From Ignavibacteriota bacterium (GTDB lineage: Bacteria; Bacteroidota; Ignavibacteria; UBA10030), in assembly GCA_003155495.1 (NCBI GenBank), contig PMDB01000091.1, positions 651 to 36,386 of the forward strand: a DNA stretch of 35,736 nucleotides, in the 5' to 3' direction. The translations under genes were made by a program, and so were the position numbers. The notes below the pieces were generated by a model. It made no database searches and had not been told where the DNA came from. It worked only from the letters and a program-made list of their open reading frames with translations. Shown in pieces: positions 19,975 to 28,563 of the stretch. Every line of letters starts with the position of its first letter. Positions within the stretch are counted from its first letter, which is position 1.

Positions 19975-22185
19975 TCATTTTGATGTCATGATAAAGATAC
20001 CGTTCCAATCATCCGGTGGCGGAGTCAGCTTGTACAGGCTGGCACGTTCGGAGTAAATCTGTGCGGCATAACAGGTCTCATCGAACGAATACGCTTGCTG
20101 CATGTAAGCATTCGCTTCTTCCCACTGGCGTGCACGGTAAAGCTTCAGTCCTTCGTTGTACAACTCCAAAGATTGCCGCTTGTTGTTGGTCATCTCCATC
20201 TTGGTAGTACCGAGCAGTTCATACACTTTCACCGGTTCATTTTTACCCTTTACCTGAATCAAATCAAGTTCCCGTACAACTACTTTTTCTTTAACGTGTG
20301 TATAGGTAAAATCACTGATCATAATATTCGACTTGTATTGCTTATTGGCGCCTTCGAGGCGCGAAGCGAGGTTCACGCTGTCGCCGATCACGGTATAGTC
20401 GAATCGATCCTTGCCACCCATATTTCCAACAATCATAATGCCGGTGTTGATCCCCATACGCATCGTGAGTGCCGGTTTCCCTTCCTTGGCCCATTTGATT
20501 CGAAGCACTTCTAATCGTTTTTGCATGTCCAATGCTGCGAGGCATGCGCGAAGGGCATGGTCTTTCTGCGGAAGCGGAGCGCCCCAGAACGCCATGATCG
20601 CGTCGCCTTCATACTTATCCAGCGTTCCTTCGTACTTCAGCACCAAGCGGGTCATCTCATCTAAGAATTCATTAAGCAGTGCGACCAAGCCTTCTGGTCT
20701 GCTATGGTACTGTTCGGAAATGTTTGTGAAATTTGCGATATCAGAGAAGAACACCGTCAGTTCACACCGATCGCCTCCTAATTTAGCTTTCTCTGGATTT
20801 GCAACTAACTCGTTGACTACAGCCGGATTGATATAGTGACCAAACATATTCTTGATGACTGCTTTTTGCTGCCGTTCGGTTAGGTATTGATAAACTGCAG
20901 TGCCGAAATACGCTAGTACAATCGCAAAGCTTGGGTTCACTACATTCATCAACACATTACTATTGATAAAGGTAATGATAGAAATTTCGAATACTGCACC
21001 GATGAGTGCAACTGTGAGAAGAAAAGCACAGATTTCCAGCAGCCAGATATGACGCATATGAATCTGTTTCAACGCCAGCAATCCAACGAAACTAAGTAGT
21101 GAGAGGACAATGATCATTATACTTTCGACGACCGGATCAGCCGTTGAAATAAAATTTTTATCGATCACATTCTGAACAGCAGTAGCATGAATCTCCACGC
21201 CGTTCATCGCATAATTATTTTTTCCCCCTTCTTCAATGTATAACGGAATATTGTGGAAATCGCGCTCTTCCGGCATCACAGAGCCGATGATCACAATTTT
21301 ATTCTTGAACCTACTCATCATCTCCTCGTCAAAAGTGTTGAGATCCGTTTCGTATTGGATCTCGTCCTTCGTTTTAAATGATGAATCGTCGATGACTTGA
21401 GAAAATTCTTCATAGTGGAATGTTTTCACTGGGCCATAATAGTTGAGCAAAAAAGTCGTGCTTTGATATCGTGGAATAGAACGGTTTTGGTAGAGAAAGA
21501 ATTGATCTGTCAAACCAACGCATGTCTCCGGCTTTAATTTGTACACCCGATTGAGGGCTGCAAAGGCGAGTGATGGAGTTAAATATCCCTTCACATCGAG
21601 CATCGGAAAATAGGAACGACATACATCATCGCGATCTTTGTAAATATTTACCACTCCGATGTTTTTAGATGTATCATAGAAGATATTTTCGTAAGATCGA
21701 TTGGCGTTACGTAGATCGTAATTCTCACTCGTGCCGCCCGTTTGCACTTTTGTAGCAAGTATGACATTATCATACTTCTTTAATGTTGCACGCATAACAC
21801 TATCATCACCCGCACCATACTTGCTTGGTGACTCGAAGGTCATATCAAATATAATCGCTTTGGCTCCGGCCTGATTCAAATTCTCGATGATATGAGCATA
21901 ATAAGACCGGGGGAAGGGAAACGGTTCCGGCAACGCTTTAAGATCCGCATCGGAGATTCCGATAATAACGACATTTCCATCCTTCTTGAGATCGCGTCTC
22001 AGTACTTCGCGTTCGTATTTGCTCTGATAGCGAAAATCAATCGTCAGCAGATCGATGTTCTTCAAAAAGTTCAATTCGAAAAGCCATCCTTGCCCGAGAA
22101 TGACAACGAACACACCGATGCCCAATCCGATTGCAATCTTTATGAGAAGGGGCAGGATTTTTTTCTTGAATTCATAGGAAGCCAT
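19975..22185 (-). CDS. CHASE2-domain class III adenylate cyclase
   Basis: 736 residues. An N-terminal membrane helix (13-33) is followed by a periplasmic CHASE2 sensor domain (about 40-345: NIDLLTIDFRYQSKYE, VVIIGISDADLKAL, FPFPRSYYAHIIENL, GVEIHATAVQNVID). Three membrane helices follow at about 355-440, then the cyclase domain at about 470-655. Catalytic residues are intact: metal Asp482 (VFFSDIANF) and Asp528 (DKYEGDAIMAFWG), adenine-selecting Lys524 and Asp596 (RFDYTVIGD), and transition-state Asn605 and Arg609 (NLASRLEG). The Lys/Asp pair points to ATP rather than GTP. One TPR-like unit lies near the C-terminus (QSLELYNEGLKLYRAR). It converts an envelope signal into cAMP. AAAAGGAA precedes the ATG. 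It is last in a minus-strand series with FecR and barrel genes. Confidence 0.93.
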   Translation of the reverse strand: MASYEFKKKILPLLIKIAIGLGIGVFVVILGQGWLFELNFLKNIDLLTIDFRYQSKYEREVLRRDLKKDGNVVIIGISDADLKALPEPFPFPRSYYAHIIENLNQAGAKAIIFDMTFESPSKYGAGDDSVMRATLKKYDNVILATKVQTGGTSENYDLRNANRSYENIFYDTSKNIGVVNIYKDRDDVCRSYFPMLDVKGYLTPSLAFAALNRVYKLKPETCVGLTDQFFLYQNRSIPRYQSTTFLLNYYGPVKTFHYEEFSQVIDDSSFKTKDEIQYETDLNTFDEEMMSRFKNKIVIIGSVMPEERDFHNIPLYIEEGGKNNYAMNGVEIHATAVQNVIDKNFISTADPVVESIMIIVLSLLSFVGLLALKQIHMRHIWLLEICAFLLTVALIGAVFEISIITFINSNVLMNVVNPSFAIVLAYFGTAVYQYLTERQQKAVIKNMFGHYINPAVVNELVANPEKAKLGGDRCELTVFFSDIANFTNISEQYHSRPEGLVALLNEFLDEMTRLVLKYEGTLDKYEGDAIMAFWGAPLPQKDHALRACLAALDMQKRLEVLRIKWAKEGKPALTMRMGINTGIMIVGNMGGKDRFDYTVIGDSVNLASRLEGANKQYKSNIMISDFTYTHVKEKVVVRELDLIQVKGKNEPVKVYELLGTTKMEMTNNKRQSLELYNEGLKLYRARQWEEANAYMQQAYSFDETCYAAQIYSERASLYKLTPPPDDWNGIFIMTSK

Positions 22186-22214
22186 AATTCTGATTCCTTT
22201 TGAGATGAACGGGA

Positions 22215-22256
22215 GGAAAAGCTTCGTATCTCTTCACGAAAGAACAGGCACGAAGC
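22215..22256 (-). terminator. Hairpin between barrel and cyclase genes
   Basis: On the minus strand GCTTCGT (reverse complement of 22250-22256) pairs with ACGAAGC (22221-22227) around a 22-nt loop, followed by TTTTCC. It is a weak terminator or attenuator 22 bp after the barrel stop codon; read-through into the cyclase gene is possible. Confidence 0.4.
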
Positions 22257-22278
22257 CCTCGTTACTTCACTTGGTTCG

Positions 22279-24798
22279 TCAGAACATAAACCGATATAAG
22301 ATACTAAAGACTACATCACTCGCTCTATCCGAATTCTTGATAAAATCGAATTGGCTGACAAGATAATGATTTTCCCCCGCCTGAAACTCGGCGCCGGCTT
22401 GTAGAAGAAGCCGTTTAAAATCACCAAACGATGGAGCCACTGTTGCCAGCAAATTGAGCCGGTCGTTCATTATCCGATATCGTGCACTGAGTGAAATAGT
22501 TTGATAATTGAACACCGTCTGTTTCTGGGTAGCTCCCAAATATATGTGTTGTACTGAATCCCACGCAGAATACGCGGCAGTATGGTTCACAATAACTCCA
22601 ATAGTTGTCTGCAGCGGTATAGAAAAGAACGAGGACACCAGAATAGAAAAATTATTATTGTCTTGATCGCGTCCATAGAATGTATTGTCTTTTTTGTTTG
22701 ATATGCTGACAGATGCCGTCAGACTATTCCGTACAACCATCTGAAAATCGTAATTCGTGGCAATAAAAAACCGGTTGGTCTTTTCTGAGACAATGCCGAG
22801 TGAATCGATTTGTATTGTATCGATAGATAGATCGATAGGGTTCTTACGGGTATTCAGACCATACCCAATGGTGAACGATGGAAGCTCTGCGCTTGGATAC
22901 GCTGTTAGAGATGTATTCAATGTATTGTACGTTGTTGTCGGTGTATTTGCATCGTTCTGCGTGTTATTGCTTTTAGTTTCGTACGAAACACTTGCCATGA
23001 TTTTGTTGTTGAACATCCGAACACGGTCGGAGATATTGACGCCGGCAATATCGTTCTGAACAAAATCATTGCCAAACGATGCATATGCAATACCTCTCCG
23101 GAACACCATGGCGCGAAGATAATTGTTCAAATAATTCAACGATAGTTCCGATTCGAACGCAAGAGATGGCATTCCTTTGATAGGATTTAACGGCGACAGG
23201 TTCGTATTGAACGTAATGAATTTGCGGCCGGTCTTGGCAATGTTCTCTATGTCCTGCGCGTCGCTGAGTGCTTGCGCTGAATCTGCAGCATTCCTTGCCT
23301 TTGATAATTCATATTGCTGGAAATCATCAAGAGTAAAGCTACCGAGCGAAATGTCCGTGTTTTCAAGACTGATGGCTGCCTGGCTTGCCCACCTCACCTT
23401 CTGATTATCAAATGCAAGCAGCAAATCAGCACCTGCAACAAAATTCTCCTTCGGATATGTTCCGTTCGCAATAGAACCTATATCGTCTTTCGCCTTCATA
23501 TAGGTGAGACCGAATTGAAAGTTCCCCCCGCTTCCGAAGCTTGGACGTATGGCTAAAATGTTACGTGCGTATGTACCAGAAGTGTACATACGATAAAAAA
23601 GTGTATCCATAGATGTACCATAATTTGGATTTTGTCCTCCAAATCTTTCAAATGTTGTTTCTTTTGGACGATTCGAGGCTGAAGAAGAATCACCATAACT
23701 GATTAATCCACCTATCGCCCCATCAATTGCACGATCCGTTTGCCCGTACGACACATCGAGGTTGAAAAAACCGAGTGTGACTGAACCTGTAATACCACGA
23801 ACGCGTTTGCCGCTCACAATAAGCGAAGGAAACTGTGGATAAGCATCGCCAATTTGCACTTTTGCATAGTCAGATTCCTGGAACGTTGCAAGAAATCTAT
23901 CCTGCGGTTGCAAGTACGATTTTTCTTCATTCGTCAAGTGCACATCACCGCTAAAGAGGAAGTCTTTATACGAACCTCCCAGATGAACATCCCCGCGTAC
24001 ATATTTTGTCGTAGCAGAATCAACTTTCTCGTTCCGGAATTCAGCCTGTGCATTACCTGTATATTGAAGCAAAGATTTCTGTTCTTCCAGAGCCGTGGCC
24101 GTGGAAAGATTGAAATTCTCCTGTTTCGTATAATACAAATTTCCCAGTGTATCTTTCAGTTCTATTTTAATTGAGTGCGCGCCAAAATTGAGCGGTTTGT
24201 CAAAATTCTTTGGACTGTACAGCAGCACATCATCTGATATTAATGCTTCACTTGTGACATCTGCCCCATCAAGGGAGATGCGAGTACGTCTTTTGTCAAC
24301 GATGTCTGAAGCGTACATCAATGATACAGCAACTGCAAGATCTTCTGCTGCCAATGTTTCACCGGGTTCGGGGCTTAGGAAACGAACTTCAAGATCTTTC
24401 ACATCTACTTCTTTGACTTGAATTTTTAGCGGATTCGTTTCAGGGCTTTCAGAAGGAAATGTTGCTTGTTTGCTATCGGCAAGCTGCATGCTGATATAGT
24501 ATTCAATGTACGGCGGTGTCATTGCCTTGGCTGGTACTGTTGCAACTGCGGTGCGCCCGGAGAGGAGCATATCAGTTTCTTTGAATTCCGTCTTTCCAAA
24601 TTCCCGATAGTGAAGCACTACTCTGCGAATCTGAGTATTCTGTGTCAGTTCTACACTGAGTGAAAGCGGTGTCTTCTCATTGGCTGCCGGTACTTTGACT
24701 TCGATAACATATTGACTGACCTGCCCATAGACAACCGGAAGAAATATCACAATGAGTAAGAACGAGAAAACGAGGGTTTTGGAGAGGGTCTTGTTCAT
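22279..24798 (-). CDS. Outer-membrane beta-barrel protein with N-terminal Ig-like domain
   Basis: 839 residues. Signal peptide at 1-25 (MNKTLSKTLVFSFLLIVIFL, cleavage near VYGQ). Residues about 58-131 form a small beta domain (LHYREFGKTEFKETDML, PPYIEYYISMQLAD) that resembles the C-terminal domain of the FecR protein encoded just upstream. A second Ig-like region lies at about 135-235 (VRFLSPEPGETLAAEDLAVA). From about 260 to the end the sequence shows alternating amphipathic strands and ends in SILYRFMF, the terminal-Phe signature of Bam-assembled barrels. No plug domain or TonB box was recognised. It is probably an outer-membrane sensor or channel. The frame is open 38 codons further upstream, but that stretch crosses a strong hairpin, so ATG 24798, at the signal peptide, is preferred. 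Confidence 0.78.
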   Translation of the reverse strand: MNKTLSKTLVFSFLLIVIFLPVVYGQVSQYVIEVKVPAANEKTPLSLSVELTQNTQIRRVVLHYREFGKTEFKETDMLLSGRTAVATVPAKAMTPPYIEYYISMQLADSKQATFPSESPETNPLKIQVKEVDVKDLEVRFLSPEPGETLAAEDLAVAVSLMYASDIVDKRRTRISLDGADVTSEALISDDVLLYSPKNFDKPLNFGAHSIKIELKDTLGNLYYTKQENFNLSTATALEEQKSLLQYTGNAQAEFRNEKVDSATTKYVRGDVHLGGSYKDFLFSGDVHLTNEEKSYLQPQDRFLATFQESDYAKVQIGDAYPQFPSLIVSGKRVRGITGSVTLGFFNLDVSYGQTDRAIDGAIGGLISYGDSSSASNRPKETTFERFGGQNPNYGTSMDTLFYRMYTSGTYARNILAIRPSFGSGGNFQFGLTYMKAKDDIGSIANGTYPKENFVAGADLLLAFDNQKVRWASQAAISLENTDISLGSFTLDDFQQYELSKARNAADSAQALSDAQDIENIAKTGRKFITFNTNLSPLNPIKGMPSLAFESELSLNYLNNYLRAMVFRRGIAYASFGNDFVQNDIAGVNISDRVRMFNNKIMASVSYETKSNNTQNDANTPTTTYNTLNTSLTAYPSAELPSFTIGYGLNTRKNPIDLSIDTIQIDSLGIVSEKTNRFFIATNYDFQMVVRNSLTASVSISNKKDNTFYGRDQDNNNFSILVSSFFSIPLQTTIGVIVNHTAAYSAWDSVQHIYLGATQKQTVFNYQTISLSARYRIMNDRLNLLATVAPSFGDFKRLLLQAGAEFQAGENHYLVSQFDFIKNSDRASDVVFSILYRFMF

Positions 24799-24845
24799 AT
24801 CAATCACTTTCAATGATGTGTACTGCTTGAATTTTTGAATCGAAG

Positions 24846-24882
24846 ATAAAAAGAAACGGCGGGTTATGCTACGCCCGCCGTT
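24846..24882 (-). terminator. Strong hairpin terminator/attenuator between fecR-like and barrel genes
   Basis: AACGGCGGG and CCCGCCGTT (24855-24863 and 24874-24882) form a perfect 9-bp GC-rich stem with a 10-nt loop. On the minus strand TTTCTTTTTATC follows. It lies about 50 bp after the FecR-protein stop and about 50 bp before the barrel start, so it should limit transcription into the barrel gene. Confidence 0.75.
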
Positions 24883-24932
24883 CAATTTATAAAAAGCATC
24901 TATGTGAAGCAAGACCTGAAATAGTAAGATCC

Positions 24933-25946
24933 TTATTCATTCCATTTTAAGACGACTACTTTCTTTTGTAAAGAGCCGGTTTGACCCGGTATGCGAAGTT
25001 CACACCGAACCGCTTCTACCGGAACAAAGGCAGGTTTTGTTGTTCCATCCTCTGGGACTAATATGATAGAGCCGTCATTTAGCTTTATTGAGAGGTAATA
25101 TTCAAGTTTTGGATATTTTACTTTGTTCGCCGGTAATTGACCCGTTGCAACCTGCCCTGTAATGGTTAAGGGAAGTTCGGTAAACGTTTGTACATTTTGT
25201 TTCCGATAAAAGAGGCTGGCAGCTATTGCTTTTCCTTGGAACGAAGATAAGTTGACACGGACTGAACCGGTTTGTTTTGATTTAAGATGACCGAAATCCG
25301 GACCAATGCCTCCAGAATCAATATCTCCCAAGTTTTGACTCAGTCTTATATTGTTCAATGTCAGCGCATTTGCTTTGCCGACTTTGAAATTACCGGTACT
25401 GTCGGTAACACCGGTTTGTCCTGCACCAACGGATCCCTTTTTACCAGAGATAGAATTTGTGAATTCCGCAGCACCATCAACGATAGTCAAAGAATCCGCA
25501 TTGCCGCCGGCAATATAGCCGCCCAGCGTTCCGCGAATGGATGCAACAGAAATGGGGGATGAGAATCGGAATTGTTCCGTTTCTGCTTTCTTCACGTTGA
25601 AAATTATATTCCCGCGATCCATATGAACACTGCGGCTGAGAATTTCTTTTCCCTTCACTTCACCCTTAATAGTGACAATAGATTTTTCTCGGAGAATTAG
25701 TTTCGATTGATCCGCGAAAAGAATCATCGCCAAGGATCCTTTATCCGTTTTCACTTCATAGCCGGACTTTAACGTACTCAACGGAACTGCCTTCTGCCAT
25801 CCCTTTGAAGGAGATTTCATATTTACATCCCGAATGACTTTCACTATGTAGGCAGAGATATCTTTCTTGTCTTGTTTTCCTACTTGCCCCAGCGAAAGCA
25901 CTCCAAGGAGTGTGAAAACACCGATTATGATAATCTTCTTTGTCAT
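24933..25946 (-). CDS. FecR-domain secreted protein with C-terminal Ig-like domain
   Basis: 337 residues. Signal peptide at 1-20 (MTKKIIIIGVFTLLGVLSLG). The FecR domain covers about 45-170: LKSGYEVKTDKGSLAMILFA, DQSKLILREKSIVTIKG, then the VHMDRGNIIFNV and SVASIRGTLGGYIAGG blocks. Residues about 243-313 carry a second beta domain (LFYRKQNVQTFTELPL, YPKLEYYLSIKLNDG) that resembles the N-terminal domain of the barrel protein. Unlike classic FecR anti-sigma regulators it has no cytoplasmic domain or transmembrane helix, so it is probably a periplasmic or surface structural or signalling protein. AAAGGAG precedes the ATG. It follows the secreted unknown gene by only 18 bp. Confidence 0.85.
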   Translation of the reverse strand: MTKKIIIIGVFTLLGVLSLGQVGKQDKKDISAYIVKVIRDVNMKSPSKGWQKAVPLSTLKSGYEVKTDKGSLAMILFADQSKLILREKSIVTIKGEVKGKEILSRSVHMDRGNIIFNVKKAETEQFRFSSPISVASIRGTLGGYIAGGNADSLTIVDGAAEFTNSISGKKGSVGAGQTGVTDSTGNFKVGKANALTLNNIRLSQNLGDIDSGGIGPDFGHLKSKQTGSVRVNLSSFQGKAIAASLFYRKQNVQTFTELPLTITGQVATGQLPANKVKYPKLEYYLSIKLNDGSIILVPEDGTTKPAFVPVEAVRCELRIPGQTGSLQKKVVVLKWNE

Positions 25947-25964
25947 GGTCTTCTCCTTTAGTGC

Positions 25965-27113
25965 TTATTGGTTTTCAACACTCAGTTCGAGTTTCACATC
26001 TTGCTGAGTGGAGAGCTCTTTCAGTAACACTTGCAGGTCGCTTTCTGAAAGCATATTGCCATTCAATGTAATGTTCCCATAGGGAGACCATGGGATCCAT
26101 TTTGTTGGATCTGCTCGAAGTGTGGAATAGGTTGCTGATGCGTTCCCTGAAACAGAATTTAAGAAGTAATCAAGGATGCTTCCGAGATTATCATTCGTGA
26201 TCCGAAAAACGACCGGTTGACTTACGCTTTTCATCGGACCACGAGAGGATGAGACGTTCGCTTCTATCTGAAGAACGTACGCTTTGTTTTCCTGAAGTTG
26301 ACGTTTTGCATTTGCCGGATACGTAAGTGTATTTGTTCCAACAACATTTTCTTCTAGATACGGATTACCTCCGGTGAGCGCATCCTGAGGTGAGTGATGA
26401 TTCAATCCCGCTTCATAGACACGAACGGTTACGTTGGGTTCTGTAGATGTCCAACTGAATGTCGGTGCTAAATTATTGGAGTAACTTCCATTCTTGGGAT
26501 CATTGATTTCTACAAAGACCTCATCCACCGCTGAATATGGAATGACGATCGTTTTTGAGTCCCCTCCGTATGAATTATTTGGATCCGTGGTACCTTGTGG
26601 AAGCGCCTTTACAGTAATCTGATATGTACCTGGAGGTGCCGCTGAAGTCGTTTGTGCAAAATCTGTTATTCTTTTCTTGAGATTCGAATTCTCGATATTC
26701 GAGTTTGCACCCAGTGGATAGAGTACAGCAATTCCACCCGCAGCCTTTACGAAGTCACGTGCAGTAAGCGTAAGTCTTCCGGTAAAAGGGATGTCGTGTG
26801 AAAGTCCTTCTAACAATTGTTCCGCATGAGCATCGCCCCGCAACTGAACGAGCACTTTCATGTAGATGCGGATTTGCAGTGGCGGGACTTGTTGCGCTCC
26901 AACAAGATCCACAGAAAATCCAGAGACAGCGGAATTCAAATTCTGTGTCTTTGCATCAATAAAATCAGTAAGATAAAGAATATCATATTCGGCGATGTTG
27001 ATCGTAGTATTTATCGAACTCTTTGTGTTCTGTGCGTTAGCGGGCGCGAACCACAGTCCCAAGCCGAACACAGTGAATATGAACACGAGTAATTTCATAC
27101 GGAGGCTTTTCAT
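25965..27113 (-). CDS. Secreted protein of unknown function
   Basis: 382 residues. A signal peptide is clear (MKLLVFIFTVFGLGLWFAPA, cleavage near ANAQ). The middle carries a beta-rich module; NLAPTFSWTSTEPNVTVRVY at about residues 215-235 looks like an Ig/fibronectin-like strand pair, with the preceding DEVFVEINDPKNGSYS as a linker. The N-terminal 140 residues (NIAEYDILYLTDFIDAK, LTARDFVKAAGG) match nothing I recognise. No Cys-lipobox, membrane helix or catalytic motif was seen. AAAGGAG lies 9 bp before the ATG. It is transcribed immediately upstream of the FecR-protein gene (18 bp gap), so it is most likely part of the same envelope module. Confidence 0.75.
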   Translation of the reverse strand: MKSLRMKLLVFIFTVFGLGLWFAPANAQNTKSSINTTINIAEYDILYLTDFIDAKTQNLNSAVSGFSVDLVGAQQVPPLQIRIYMKVLVQLRGDAHAEQLLEGLSHDIPFTGRLTLTARDFVKAAGGIAVLYPLGANSNIENSNLKKRITDFAQTTSAAPPGTYQITVKALPQGTTDPNNSYGGDSKTIVIPYSAVDEVFVEINDPKNGSYSNNLAPTFSWTSTEPNVTVRVYEAGLNHHSPQDALTGGNPYLEENVVGTNTLTYPANAKRQLQENKAYVLQIEANVSSSRGPMKSVSQPVVFRITNDNLGSILDYFLNSVSGNASATYSTLRADPTKWIPWSPYGNITLNGNMLSESDLQVLLKELSTQQDVKLELSVENQ

Positions 27114-27204: not shown

Positions 27205-28563
27205 TTAAAAATTTATGACGTCATTATACAGAACGAACGCCATAAACACAAGCAATAAGATAAATCCCGCTTGCTGAATAACAATTTTCACTTTACTTGG
27301 CACTTCCCGTCGAAAAACAGCTTCATAGGCTAAAAACACAAGATGCCCGCCGTCAAGCGCCGGAAACGGAAGAATATTAAGCAAGGCAAGACTAATACTT
27401 AGCAAACCAATGAACCCAAAAAATTCTATAAATCCGCTGTCTGCTGATCTCTTCGCCAATTGTGCAATTTTTACTGGTCCACCCATCGATTTAAGCGAAG
27501 CCTTTCCAACAATTAATTGATACATATTGGAAAGAAAGAGAATACTGGTAAATTGAAGTTCTTGAATACCAGCCGGAAGCGCTTCAAAAAATCCGTATTG
27601 TTGTCGTTTGAGCGGTCCTTGATAGACACTTGCGATTTGAATACCAATTCTGCCCTCCGAGTTCGGAGTCACTTTTGCAGTCATCCTCTGTTCACCGCGC
27701 ACCCAAGTAAGGAGAATTTCTTTGCCTTTATTTGAACGTATGAATTCAGGAAGCAGACCGGCGCTGACGGGAATTCCATTGACCGCGAGAATCGTATCTC
27801 CCGGCTGAAGGCCTATCTTTCCTGCAGGTTTTTCCTTGTCAACAACAACGATAAGCGGAACTTCACCAATCGGACTTATTCCGAATTGTTCTTCTGTAAG
27901 ATCAGGAATGTCCGTACGGCGAATCGTAACAGTGATAGGTGCGCCTAAACGTTTCAACTGAAAGATAAGGTCATGCGTCACTGATTCTGTATAAATGGAG
28001 CTCCCAATTTCATCCCATTGCTGTATCGGATGATTATTAATTGAGAGAATCTCGTCACCAACATGCAGACCTGATTTCGCAGCGGAACTATTTGGCGTTA
28101 CATAACCAATCTCCCTTACCGGACGGATCGTCTTGCCCTGGTAATAAATAATTCCCCAGAAAATAATGATTGCAAGAAGAAGGTTCATCAACACACCTGC
28201 AGAGATGACAAGAGAGCGCTGCCATATGGGTCTCGAACGGAATTCCCATGGCTGTGGTTCTTGTTTTAAGAATTCCGTATCCATGCTTTCGTCAATCATA
28301 CCGGCAATCTTTACATATCCACCAATTGGAAACATTGCAACACGATAGTCGGTATTCCCCTCAAGATCGAGATCGTCGGCAAGTTTGCCGAAAGAAAATT
28401 TCGTTTTTTTATTCCATCCGAACAACCTGTTACCCATACCGACAGCAAATACTTCAGCACGCATTCCGCACGAAATCGCGGCAAGGAAATGGCCGAGTTC
28501 ATGCACCAGCACCAGAATGCCGATAGTAATAATAAAATAGAATAATGTGCTCAGTATAGTCAT
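27205..28563 (-). CDS. rseP: RseP-family site-2 zinc metalloprotease
   Basis: 452 residues, normal for the family. The zinc motif HELGH (H21, E22, H25, in LVLVHELGHFLAA) is in the first helix. Two PDZ domains follow at about 135-215 and 220-300 (SSAAKSGLHVGDEILSINN, PAGKIGLQPGDTILAVNG). The C-terminal zinc-binding block NILPFPALDGGHL (Asp about 404) and the last membrane helix close the protein. It performs intramembrane cleavage of anti-sigma factors and remnant signal peptides in the inner membrane. It is paired with dxr (48 bp gap), a common bacterial arrangement. The anti-sigma factor encoded at 18891 is a possible substrate (inference). Confidence 0.94.
   Translation of the reverse strand: MTILSTLFYFIITIGILVLVHELGHFLAAISCGMRAEVFAVGMGNRLFGWNKKTKFSFGKLADDLDLEGNTDYRVAMFPIGGYVKIAGMIDESMDTEFLKQEPQPWEFRSRPIWQRSLVISAGVLMNLLLAIIIFWGIIYYQGKTIRPVREIGYVTPNSSAAKSGLHVGDEILSINNHPIQQWDEIGSSIYTESVTHDLIFQLKRLGAPITVTIRRTDIPDLTEEQFGISPIGEVPLIVVVDKEKPAGKIGLQPGDTILAVNGIPVSAGLLPEFIRSNKGKEILLTWVRGEQRMTAKVTPNSEGRIGIQIASVYQGPLKRQQYGFFEALPAGIQELQFTSILFLSNMYQLIVGKASLKSMGGPVKIAQLAKRSADSGFIEFFGFIGLLSISLALLNILPFPALDGGHLVFLAYEAVFRREVPSKVKIVIQQAGFILLLVFMAFVLYNDVINF

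Follow-up and report, generated by a model that had tools for sequence, protein, structure and literature searches.

Two neighbouring genes of an Ignavibacteriota bacterium, one encoding a FecR-domain protein and the other an outer-membrane β-barrel protein, share a domain of about 95 residues: FecR residues 218-312 are homologous to D1, the first domain of the neighbouring outer-membrane protein. The whole stretch of DNA analysed, hereafter the window, comprises 35,736 nucleotides and its features are listed in Table 1. Our data support the view that the FecR module and D1 are both IgSF-type β-sandwiches, paralogous and part of one conserved gene system. The domain type itself is common; its place, however, in a conserved operon resembling a known outer-membrane-to-cyclic-AMP sensor suggests an unstudied envelope signalling system, and our literature search found no description of this operon. 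We consider it moderately probable that the module is ancestral in the barrel protein and was copied into FecR, with a trans-envelope cAMP switch as the most likely machine.

Table 1. Features of the operon in the window, with coordinates, strand and basis of assignment.
Feature	Coordinates	Strand	Basis
CHASE2 adenylate cyclase, 736 aa	19975..22185	-	Pfam CHASE2 7e-45, Guanylate_cyc 1e-25
Outer-membrane β-barrel protein, 839 aa from ATG 24798	22279..24798	-	signal peptide by eye; conserved family
Barrel region, after D2	about 24075-22279	-	sequence features and long strands
Second Ig-like domain D2 of the barrel protein	24106..24393	-	AlphaFold2 strands 131-206, pLDDT about 50-77
IgSF-like module D1 of the barrel protein	24415..24699	-	family profile; Foldseek PPAD
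FecR-domain protein, 337 aa, signal peptide, no anti-sigma domain	24933..25946	-	Pfam FecR 2.4e-8
FecR C-terminal hairpin ELRIPGQTGSLQKKVVVLKWNE	24936..25007	-	ends of FecR relatives; kept with or without module
IgSF-like module of FecR, residues 218-312	25011..25295	-	profile match 5e-26; HHalign to D1
FecR domain, residues 64-159	25470..25757	-	Pfam PF04773, 2.4e-8
HYP382, 382-aa exported protein, first operon gene	25965..27113	-	N-terminal signal peptide by eye

The shared domain and its fold

The original prediction had placed one domain in both neighbours, at FecR residues 243-313 (25220-25008) and barrel residues 58-131 (24627-24406, counted from the ATG at 24798; the longest ORF starts at TTG 24912), and both the positions and the homology were borne out. 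BLASTP aligned the two window proteins over 87 aa with 31% identity (E 7e-8). A profile of the barrel N-terminus, built from 43 sequences with no FecR sequence included, recovered the window FecR at E 3.9e-12 in a search of 523 ORFs; beyond it, the profile matched relatives of FecR and a small number of long secreted proteins. Profile-profile comparison of D1 with the FecR module by HHalign gave a probability of 99.4% (E 1.3e-21, 88 columns). In AlphaFold2 models of moderate confidence, the strands of the FecR module (208-212, 220-229, 236-243, 246-250, 261-269, 274-278) and of D1 (20-26, 32-41, 48-55, 58-63, 72-81, 86-89) agree in order and spacing. The window copies are only about 30% identical and Ig folds are common, as would be expected of convergence or chance between two beta-rich segments; nevertheless, the probability of such an origin is negligible, contradicted as it is by the pairwise and profile-profile E-values, by a match that is co-linear over the full length and by relatives such as L038 with three clear tandem copies. 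A weak Tax match in the FecR module region (E 0.077) did not reach the cut-off and was dismissed as chance.

Among solved structures, the shared module is nearest to the IgSF domain of Porphyromonas peptidylarginine deiminase (PPAD; PDB 4ytg, 5ak7), which belongs to the same domain family by sequence profile and fold. It was matched by a mixed profile (E 4.3e-7), by the barrel-only family profile (E 6.8e-5) and by the FecR-only module profile (E 0.0011). Furthermore, Foldseek matched the D1 model to it (E 7.2e-5, 106 columns); the whole-chain structure search with the window FecR returned no match with E below 0.001. Membership of the PPAD-type β-sandwiches is indicated by this similarity to a solved member and by the predicted fold, for D1 from its own model and for the FecR module through the strand order shared with D1. 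In PPAD the domain lies C-terminal to the enzyme and ahead of a type IX secretion signal, whereas the window copies belong to envelope signalling proteins. The YR, F, EYY and P residues, previously cited as a link between the two genes, recur in the PPAD domain, in unrelated secreted proteins bearing type IX sorting tails and in a galacturonidase-like protein encoded by the same genome; hence they look like fold residues and not marks of a common partner. Pfam and NCBIfam held no family for the IgSF module, the window barrel protein or HYP382.

Origin of the FecR copy

The module had been taken for the C-terminus of FecR. It is instead followed by a conserved hairpin of about 24 residues (AlphaFold2 strands 294-302 and 308-316, low confidence), and it constitutes an optional insert between the FecR domain and this hairpin, with a copy number of 0, 1 or 3. 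The window module corresponds to copy 3 of three-copy relatives. Most FecR proteins of the operon lack the module, while the barrel retains D1, which is near-universal in its family (43 of 43 complete members examined). The FecR module is confined to two families of one order, across many genera of which it has been retained, and it diverges at about the rate of D1 and more rapidly than the FecR domain does.

In 78% of bootstrap trees the FecR modules formed one clade, and they were closer to D1 than to the modules of secreted proteins (98/95). In addition, the next best match of the FecR-module profile in whole-genome scans was regularly the barrel D1. Since the FecR copy is confined to two families and its closest genome-wide relative is D1, it looks, from these sequence comparisons, like the product of an old duplication within the operon. 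We rejected recent copying, or gene conversion, between the two window genes, because in the tree each of their modules lies nearest to the orthologous module of other genomes. The module would have resided originally at the N-terminus of the barrel protein and would have been copied from there, probably once, in the ancestor of the order, into the FecR gene between the FecR domain and the hairpin; it would later have been triplicated and lost in different lineages.

The operon and its known analogues

The gene order HYP-FecR-barrel-cyclase is conserved, and FecR and the barrel are encoded by separate genes at every locus examined. HYP382, for which we found no Pfam family above the cut-off and no NCBIfam match, directly precedes FecR in nearly all relatives, even where this pair is unlinked from the barrel. 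Such unlinking is found in families f18 and f33, with the HYP-FecR pair retained in 5/6 genomes. Loss of FecR and cyclase from these isolated-barrel families was ruled out, as each of the six genomes encodes a FecR match and a CHASE2 protein at other positions, and four of the six cyclases match the operon profile closely. The catalytic residues of the window cyclase (D482, K524, D528, D596, N605, R609) are all present and CRP-type cNMP-binding proteins are encoded in the genome. A homologue of RseP lies upstream (27205-28563). For the barrel protein, a C-terminal F is found in 52/77 relatives and two-domain FN3/Ig structural matches (Foldseek) span D1-D2; its C-terminal half is modelled with long strands at low confidence. 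The barrel assignment rests on sequence features, because the barrel half of the AlphaFold2 model, derived from an alignment of five sequences, is poor (mean pLDDT 39).

The best experimental analogue of the operon is NsrA-CyaK of Sinorhizobium meliloti, in which cAMP signalling by an external protein signal requires both NsrA and CyaK (PMC7529298, PMC13001267). There, as in the window, a FecR domain, an outer-membrane barrel and a CHASE2 class III adenylate cyclase are encoded side by side, nsrA adjoining cyaK. CyaK was among the best plasmid matches of the window cyclase and is matched by the operon cyclase profile (E 3e-113); NsrA carries a FecR domain (2.3e-15) with TPRs and is matched by the operon FecR profile (E 2e-17). 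However, the FecR domain, TPRs and barrel of NsrA form one 1200-aa protein, while the window has separate FecR and barrel proteins and an additional conserved gene, HYP382. The window barrel has N-terminal Ig-like domains, lacks TPRs and is not recognisably homologous to that of NsrA. Neither the barrel-family profile nor the IgSF module matched NsrA, thus for these two parts the comparison is only architectural. In Campylobacterota, CHASE2 cyclases likewise cluster with genes for FecR-domain outer-membrane proteins; genes for a phosphodiesterase and a TPR protein are likewise part of that cluster, in which neither the window barrel nor HYP382 nor the IgSF modules are reported (PMC9239204).

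The usual teaching is that FecR domains regulate sigma factors, but in the window operon and in NsrA they are placed between a barrel of the outer membrane and a CHASE2 cyclase. An arrangement of the classical kind, with FecR as anti-sigma regulator and the barrel as its TonB-dependent transducer, would fit the FecR domain beside an outer-membrane barrel and the RseP homologue upstream. The top structural matches of the FecR model were the PupR CCSSD (6ovk) and a Parabacteroides FecR-type anti-sigma factor (4m0n/4m0h), in agreement with a periplasmic FecR domain. The domain content, however, makes this arrangement highly improbable, and we rejected a role of FecR as sigma regulator. Ahead of the FecR domain, where PupR and FecR have an anti-sigma domain and a membrane anchor, the sequence shows a signal peptide of about 20 residues, then a short linker and nothing else; Pfam recognised no further family above its cut-off and no STN at the C-terminus, that segment being the IgSF module or absent. 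Similarly, Pfam STN, plug and TonB-receptor families were absent from all 24 barrel members searched. Instead of a recognisable sigma-factor gene, the operon contains the CHASE2 cyclase, an output unlike the sigma factor of PupR-PupB and FecR-FecA.

Role of the shared module and proposed mechanism

In the original prediction, paralogous β-sandwiches of one conserved system were taken to bind the same partner or each other; the former part stands, and binding is retained as a plausible reading by analogy and no longer as a conclusion. It is plausible because of a precedent: the FecR-type regulator PupR and its receptor PupB each have an STN domain and bind each other, both PupR subdomains being needed (PMC7186176). 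As in the window, a periplasmic FecR-type domain stands beside an outer-membrane barrel and both partners carry the same small domain kind, STN there and IgSF here. Homotypic Ig-Ig contact between FecR modules and D1 in one complex could follow this pattern, and the modules are old paralogues within one operon, with a PupR domain as the best structural match of the window FecR model. We nevertheless regard such pairing as unlikely, as the STN fold differs from IgSF, the conserved residues look like those of the fold and, unlike in PupR-PupB and FecR-FecA, the shared domain is missing from most FecR orthologues while D1 stays. For this last reason the role of D1 cannot depend on the FecR copy. 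A better chance, albeit below even, belongs to the modules being generic structural spacers of a type frequent among secreted proteins of Bacteroidota, in which case their occurrence in the two neighbours would be irrelevant to partner choice. The domain's occurrence in PPAD, long secreted proteins and the galacturonidase-like protein agrees with this, as do its divergence rate and an FecR copy number that varies freely without visible effect on the operon; its affinity to the operon's own D1 and not to cargo modules, and its retention across many genera, argue against it.

By analogy, the operon would act as a "split NsrA", an outer-membrane sensor signalling via periplasmic FecR to cAMP. The barrel would sense something at the surface, and its periplasmic domains D1-D2 would relay its state to FecR, a soluble protein of the periplasm, together with HYP382. 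FecR in turn would act on the cyclase at the latter's periplasmic CHASE2 domain, and CRP-type proteins would read the cAMP. FecR and barrel, as two chains, would have to associate non-covalently, in contrast to the single chain of NsrA in Sinorhizobium. The extra IgSF modules in FecR would probably serve this association as spacers or an added docking surface; since the majority of FecR orthologues have no module, the mechanism does not require one. Rather doubtful is the broader proposal of a widespread, undescribed outer-membrane-to-cAMP system in Ignavibacteria and related phyla, a split NsrA in which the barrel's Ig module was duplicated into FecR in one lineage to build or strengthen the receptor-transducer contact, as an Ig-based parallel to the STN pair of PupB and PupR. 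With separate FecR and receptor, this four-gene version makes what CHASE2 reads testable with two soluble periplasmic pieces. Furthermore, an optional Ig module that was probably duplicated from the receptor into the transducer, and that occurs in 0, 1 or 3 copies among close relatives, provides a natural experiment on how such contacts evolve.

Results and discussion

Positions of the features in the window
Feature	Position	Strand	Remark
Four-gene system HYP382-FecR-barrel-CHASE2 cyclase	19975-27113
FecR gene	25946-24933	minus
FecR C-terminal two-strand hairpin	25007-24936	minus	conserved FecR ends
Barrel protein gene	24798-22279 (from ATG)	minus	longest ORF starts at TTG 24912
RseP-type site-2 protease gene	27205-28563

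The window FecR protein and the neighbouring outer-membrane barrel protein share a homologous domain of about 95 residues. BLASTP of the two proteins aligned FecR residues 245-323 with the barrel N-terminus (31% identity, E 7e-8). A profile of 43 barrel N-termini, built without any FecR sequence, matched the window FecR at E 3.9e-12 among 523 ORFs, where it also detected FecR relatives bearing as many as three copies and, as its only further matches, four long secreted proteins. Profile-profile comparison of D1, the first of the two Ig-like domains (D1 and D2) preceding the barrel proper, with the FecR module (residues 218-312) gave 99.4% probability and E 1.3e-21 over 88 columns, and the predicted strands match in both their order and their spacing. 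The original prediction of paralogous modules, drawn from residue runs that are indeed present in both proteins, was thus upheld by both profiles and predicted structures, except that it placed the module at the FecR C-terminus. Nearly all operon FecR proteins, with or without modules, share a short C-terminal hairpin (RELRIPGQTGSLQKKVVVLKWNE in the window's relatives, KKIRIKTENGTIEIEY elsewhere), as read from the C-termini of the window FecR and of loci L003-L006, L037-L075 and L109-L148; hence the modules are insertions between the FecR domain and this tail, not a C-terminal domain proper. No family model describes the hairpin.

Neither does any Pfam family cover the shared module in the window proteins. 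Among solved structures, the closest in sequence is the Porphyromonas peptidylarginine deiminase IgSF domain (E 4.3e-7, 6.8e-5 and 0.0011 with mixed, barrel-only and FecR-only profiles, respectively), a 4+5-stranded β-sandwich (PMC4487231), and the predicted D1 model also retrieves this enzyme by fold (E 7.2e-5). The deiminase has the same YR, F, EYY, D and YP positions, as do secreted proteins bearing type IX sorting tails and a galacturonidase-like protein encoded in the genome of the window. These residues therefore characterise the fold and, taken alone, are no sign of the shared partner or mutual binding that had been proposed from them; what stands is the presence of paralogous modules in a functionally linked gene pair. 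The galacturonidase-like protein carries the third module copy of this genome at its C-terminus (L151:97-1764, contig G000:C32). The IgSF domain itself is ordinary, and the surrounding operon is the more interesting find.

All 43 profiled complete members of the barrel family contain D1. Operon FecR proteins contain zero, one or three modules. Within the window's order, modules occur only in families f1 and f3; f2, f4 and f40 lack them, as do all relatives outside that order. Phylogenetic analysis of 124 modules recovered the FecR copies as a single clade in 78% of bootstrap trees; FecR copies and barrel D1s together were separated from the secreted-protein modules (support 98/95). Recent copying between the two window genes was excluded, since each copy is nearest its own orthologues. 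Furthermore, across 297 whole genomes of the phylum, a FecR-only profile matched, besides FecR copies, mainly barrel D1, in ORFs of roughly 800-930 aa located at known barrel positions, with weaker matches to some long secreted proteins. The origin of the FecR module is best explained by an old duplication within the operon, with support limited on a 95-residue domain. The window copy groups with copy 3 of the three-copy FecR proteins; the branching of two three-copy relatives, L005 and L038, just outside it makes loss of the first two copies the simpler reading. In L038, from a same-genus genome (G078) with a three-module FecR, the barrel gene lies in two overlapping ORFs of 567 and 317 aa (L038:3519-6090), a frameshift or assembly error.

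The four-gene system is conserved in Ignavibacteria and in a number of other lineages of this phylum. The order HYP382 (a 382-aa exported protein), FecR, barrel, CHASE2 cyclase was found in almost every relative with sufficient flanking sequence, loci fetched through FecR being biased towards having the operon and those fetched through the barrel not. The barrel stands alone in families f18 and f33; elsewhere in these genomes we found a CHASE2 protein and a FecR match (6/6), a HYP382 match at the FecR locus (5/6) and a best CHASE2 protein closely matching the operon cyclase profile (4/6). Thus the genes seem to be retained as one system even when unlinked. In another genome (G140), proteins of 947 aa (L079:4636-7479) and 1422 aa (L079:1-4266) match the HYP382 profile and the former additionally matches the barrel profile, a possible fusion of the first gene of the operon with a barrel. 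Immediately upstream of the operon are the RseP-type gene and dxr, an arrangement shared by L003 and partly by L004 and L005. In other systems, sigma regulators are cleaved by RseP; beside dxr, the gene here may be housekeeping.

The FecR domain of the window protein resembles the periplasmic domain of PupR. The protein has a signal peptide and lacks an anti-sigma domain, and we therefore rejected a role as FecR-type sigma regulator. The nearest experimental system is NsrA-CyaK of Sinorhizobium, where nsrA lies directly upstream of cyaK (L174:1246-6797), NsrA carries a FecR domain and TPRs, its C-terminal part is a barrel (PMC7529298), and both proteins are required for cAMP signalling in response to an external protein signal (PMC7529298, PMC13001267). 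The operon FecR and cyclase profiles strongly match NsrA and CyaK, respectively; the barrel and IgSF profiles match neither. A Methylocystis relative has the same build, a FecR domain and TPR protein directly before a CHASE2 adenylate cyclase (L175:1108-6644). Moreover, gene clusters combining a CHASE2 cyclase with a FecR-domain outer-membrane protein occur in Campylobacterota (PMC9239204), and in Burkholderia a LysM-FecR protein is clustered with a CHASE2 kinase (PMC5192318). NsrA is a one-chain counterpart of FecR and barrel, which are separate chains in the window. By this analogy, the window operon is probably a split version of NsrA-CyaK, in which the barrel would be the surface sensor, D1-D2 its periplasmic output, FecR a soluble go-between and the CHASE2 cyclase the effector; FecR and barrel would then have to find each other. 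PupR and PupB both carry an STN domain and bind each other (PMC7186176), so a domain common to transducer and receptor can accompany binding, for the window pair by analogy only. The hairpin is likely a docking element and is a better candidate than the Ig modules for the core FecR-barrel contact, as it is present in nearly all FecR proteins whereas the modules are lineage-specific. The latter are candidates for a spacer or extra docking surface, and putative module-mediated binding cannot be essential across the family.

The window cyclase retains the metal aspartates D482 and D528, the adenine-specifying K524 and D596 and the transition-state N605 and R609; D596 is replaced by N in 11 of 37 relatives. 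Beside a second CHASE2 adenylate cyclase of the same genome (L159:5402-7723, contig G000:C19) no FecR or barrel gene was recognised. In addition, the genome encodes another FecR-domain protein and five cNMP-binding proteins.
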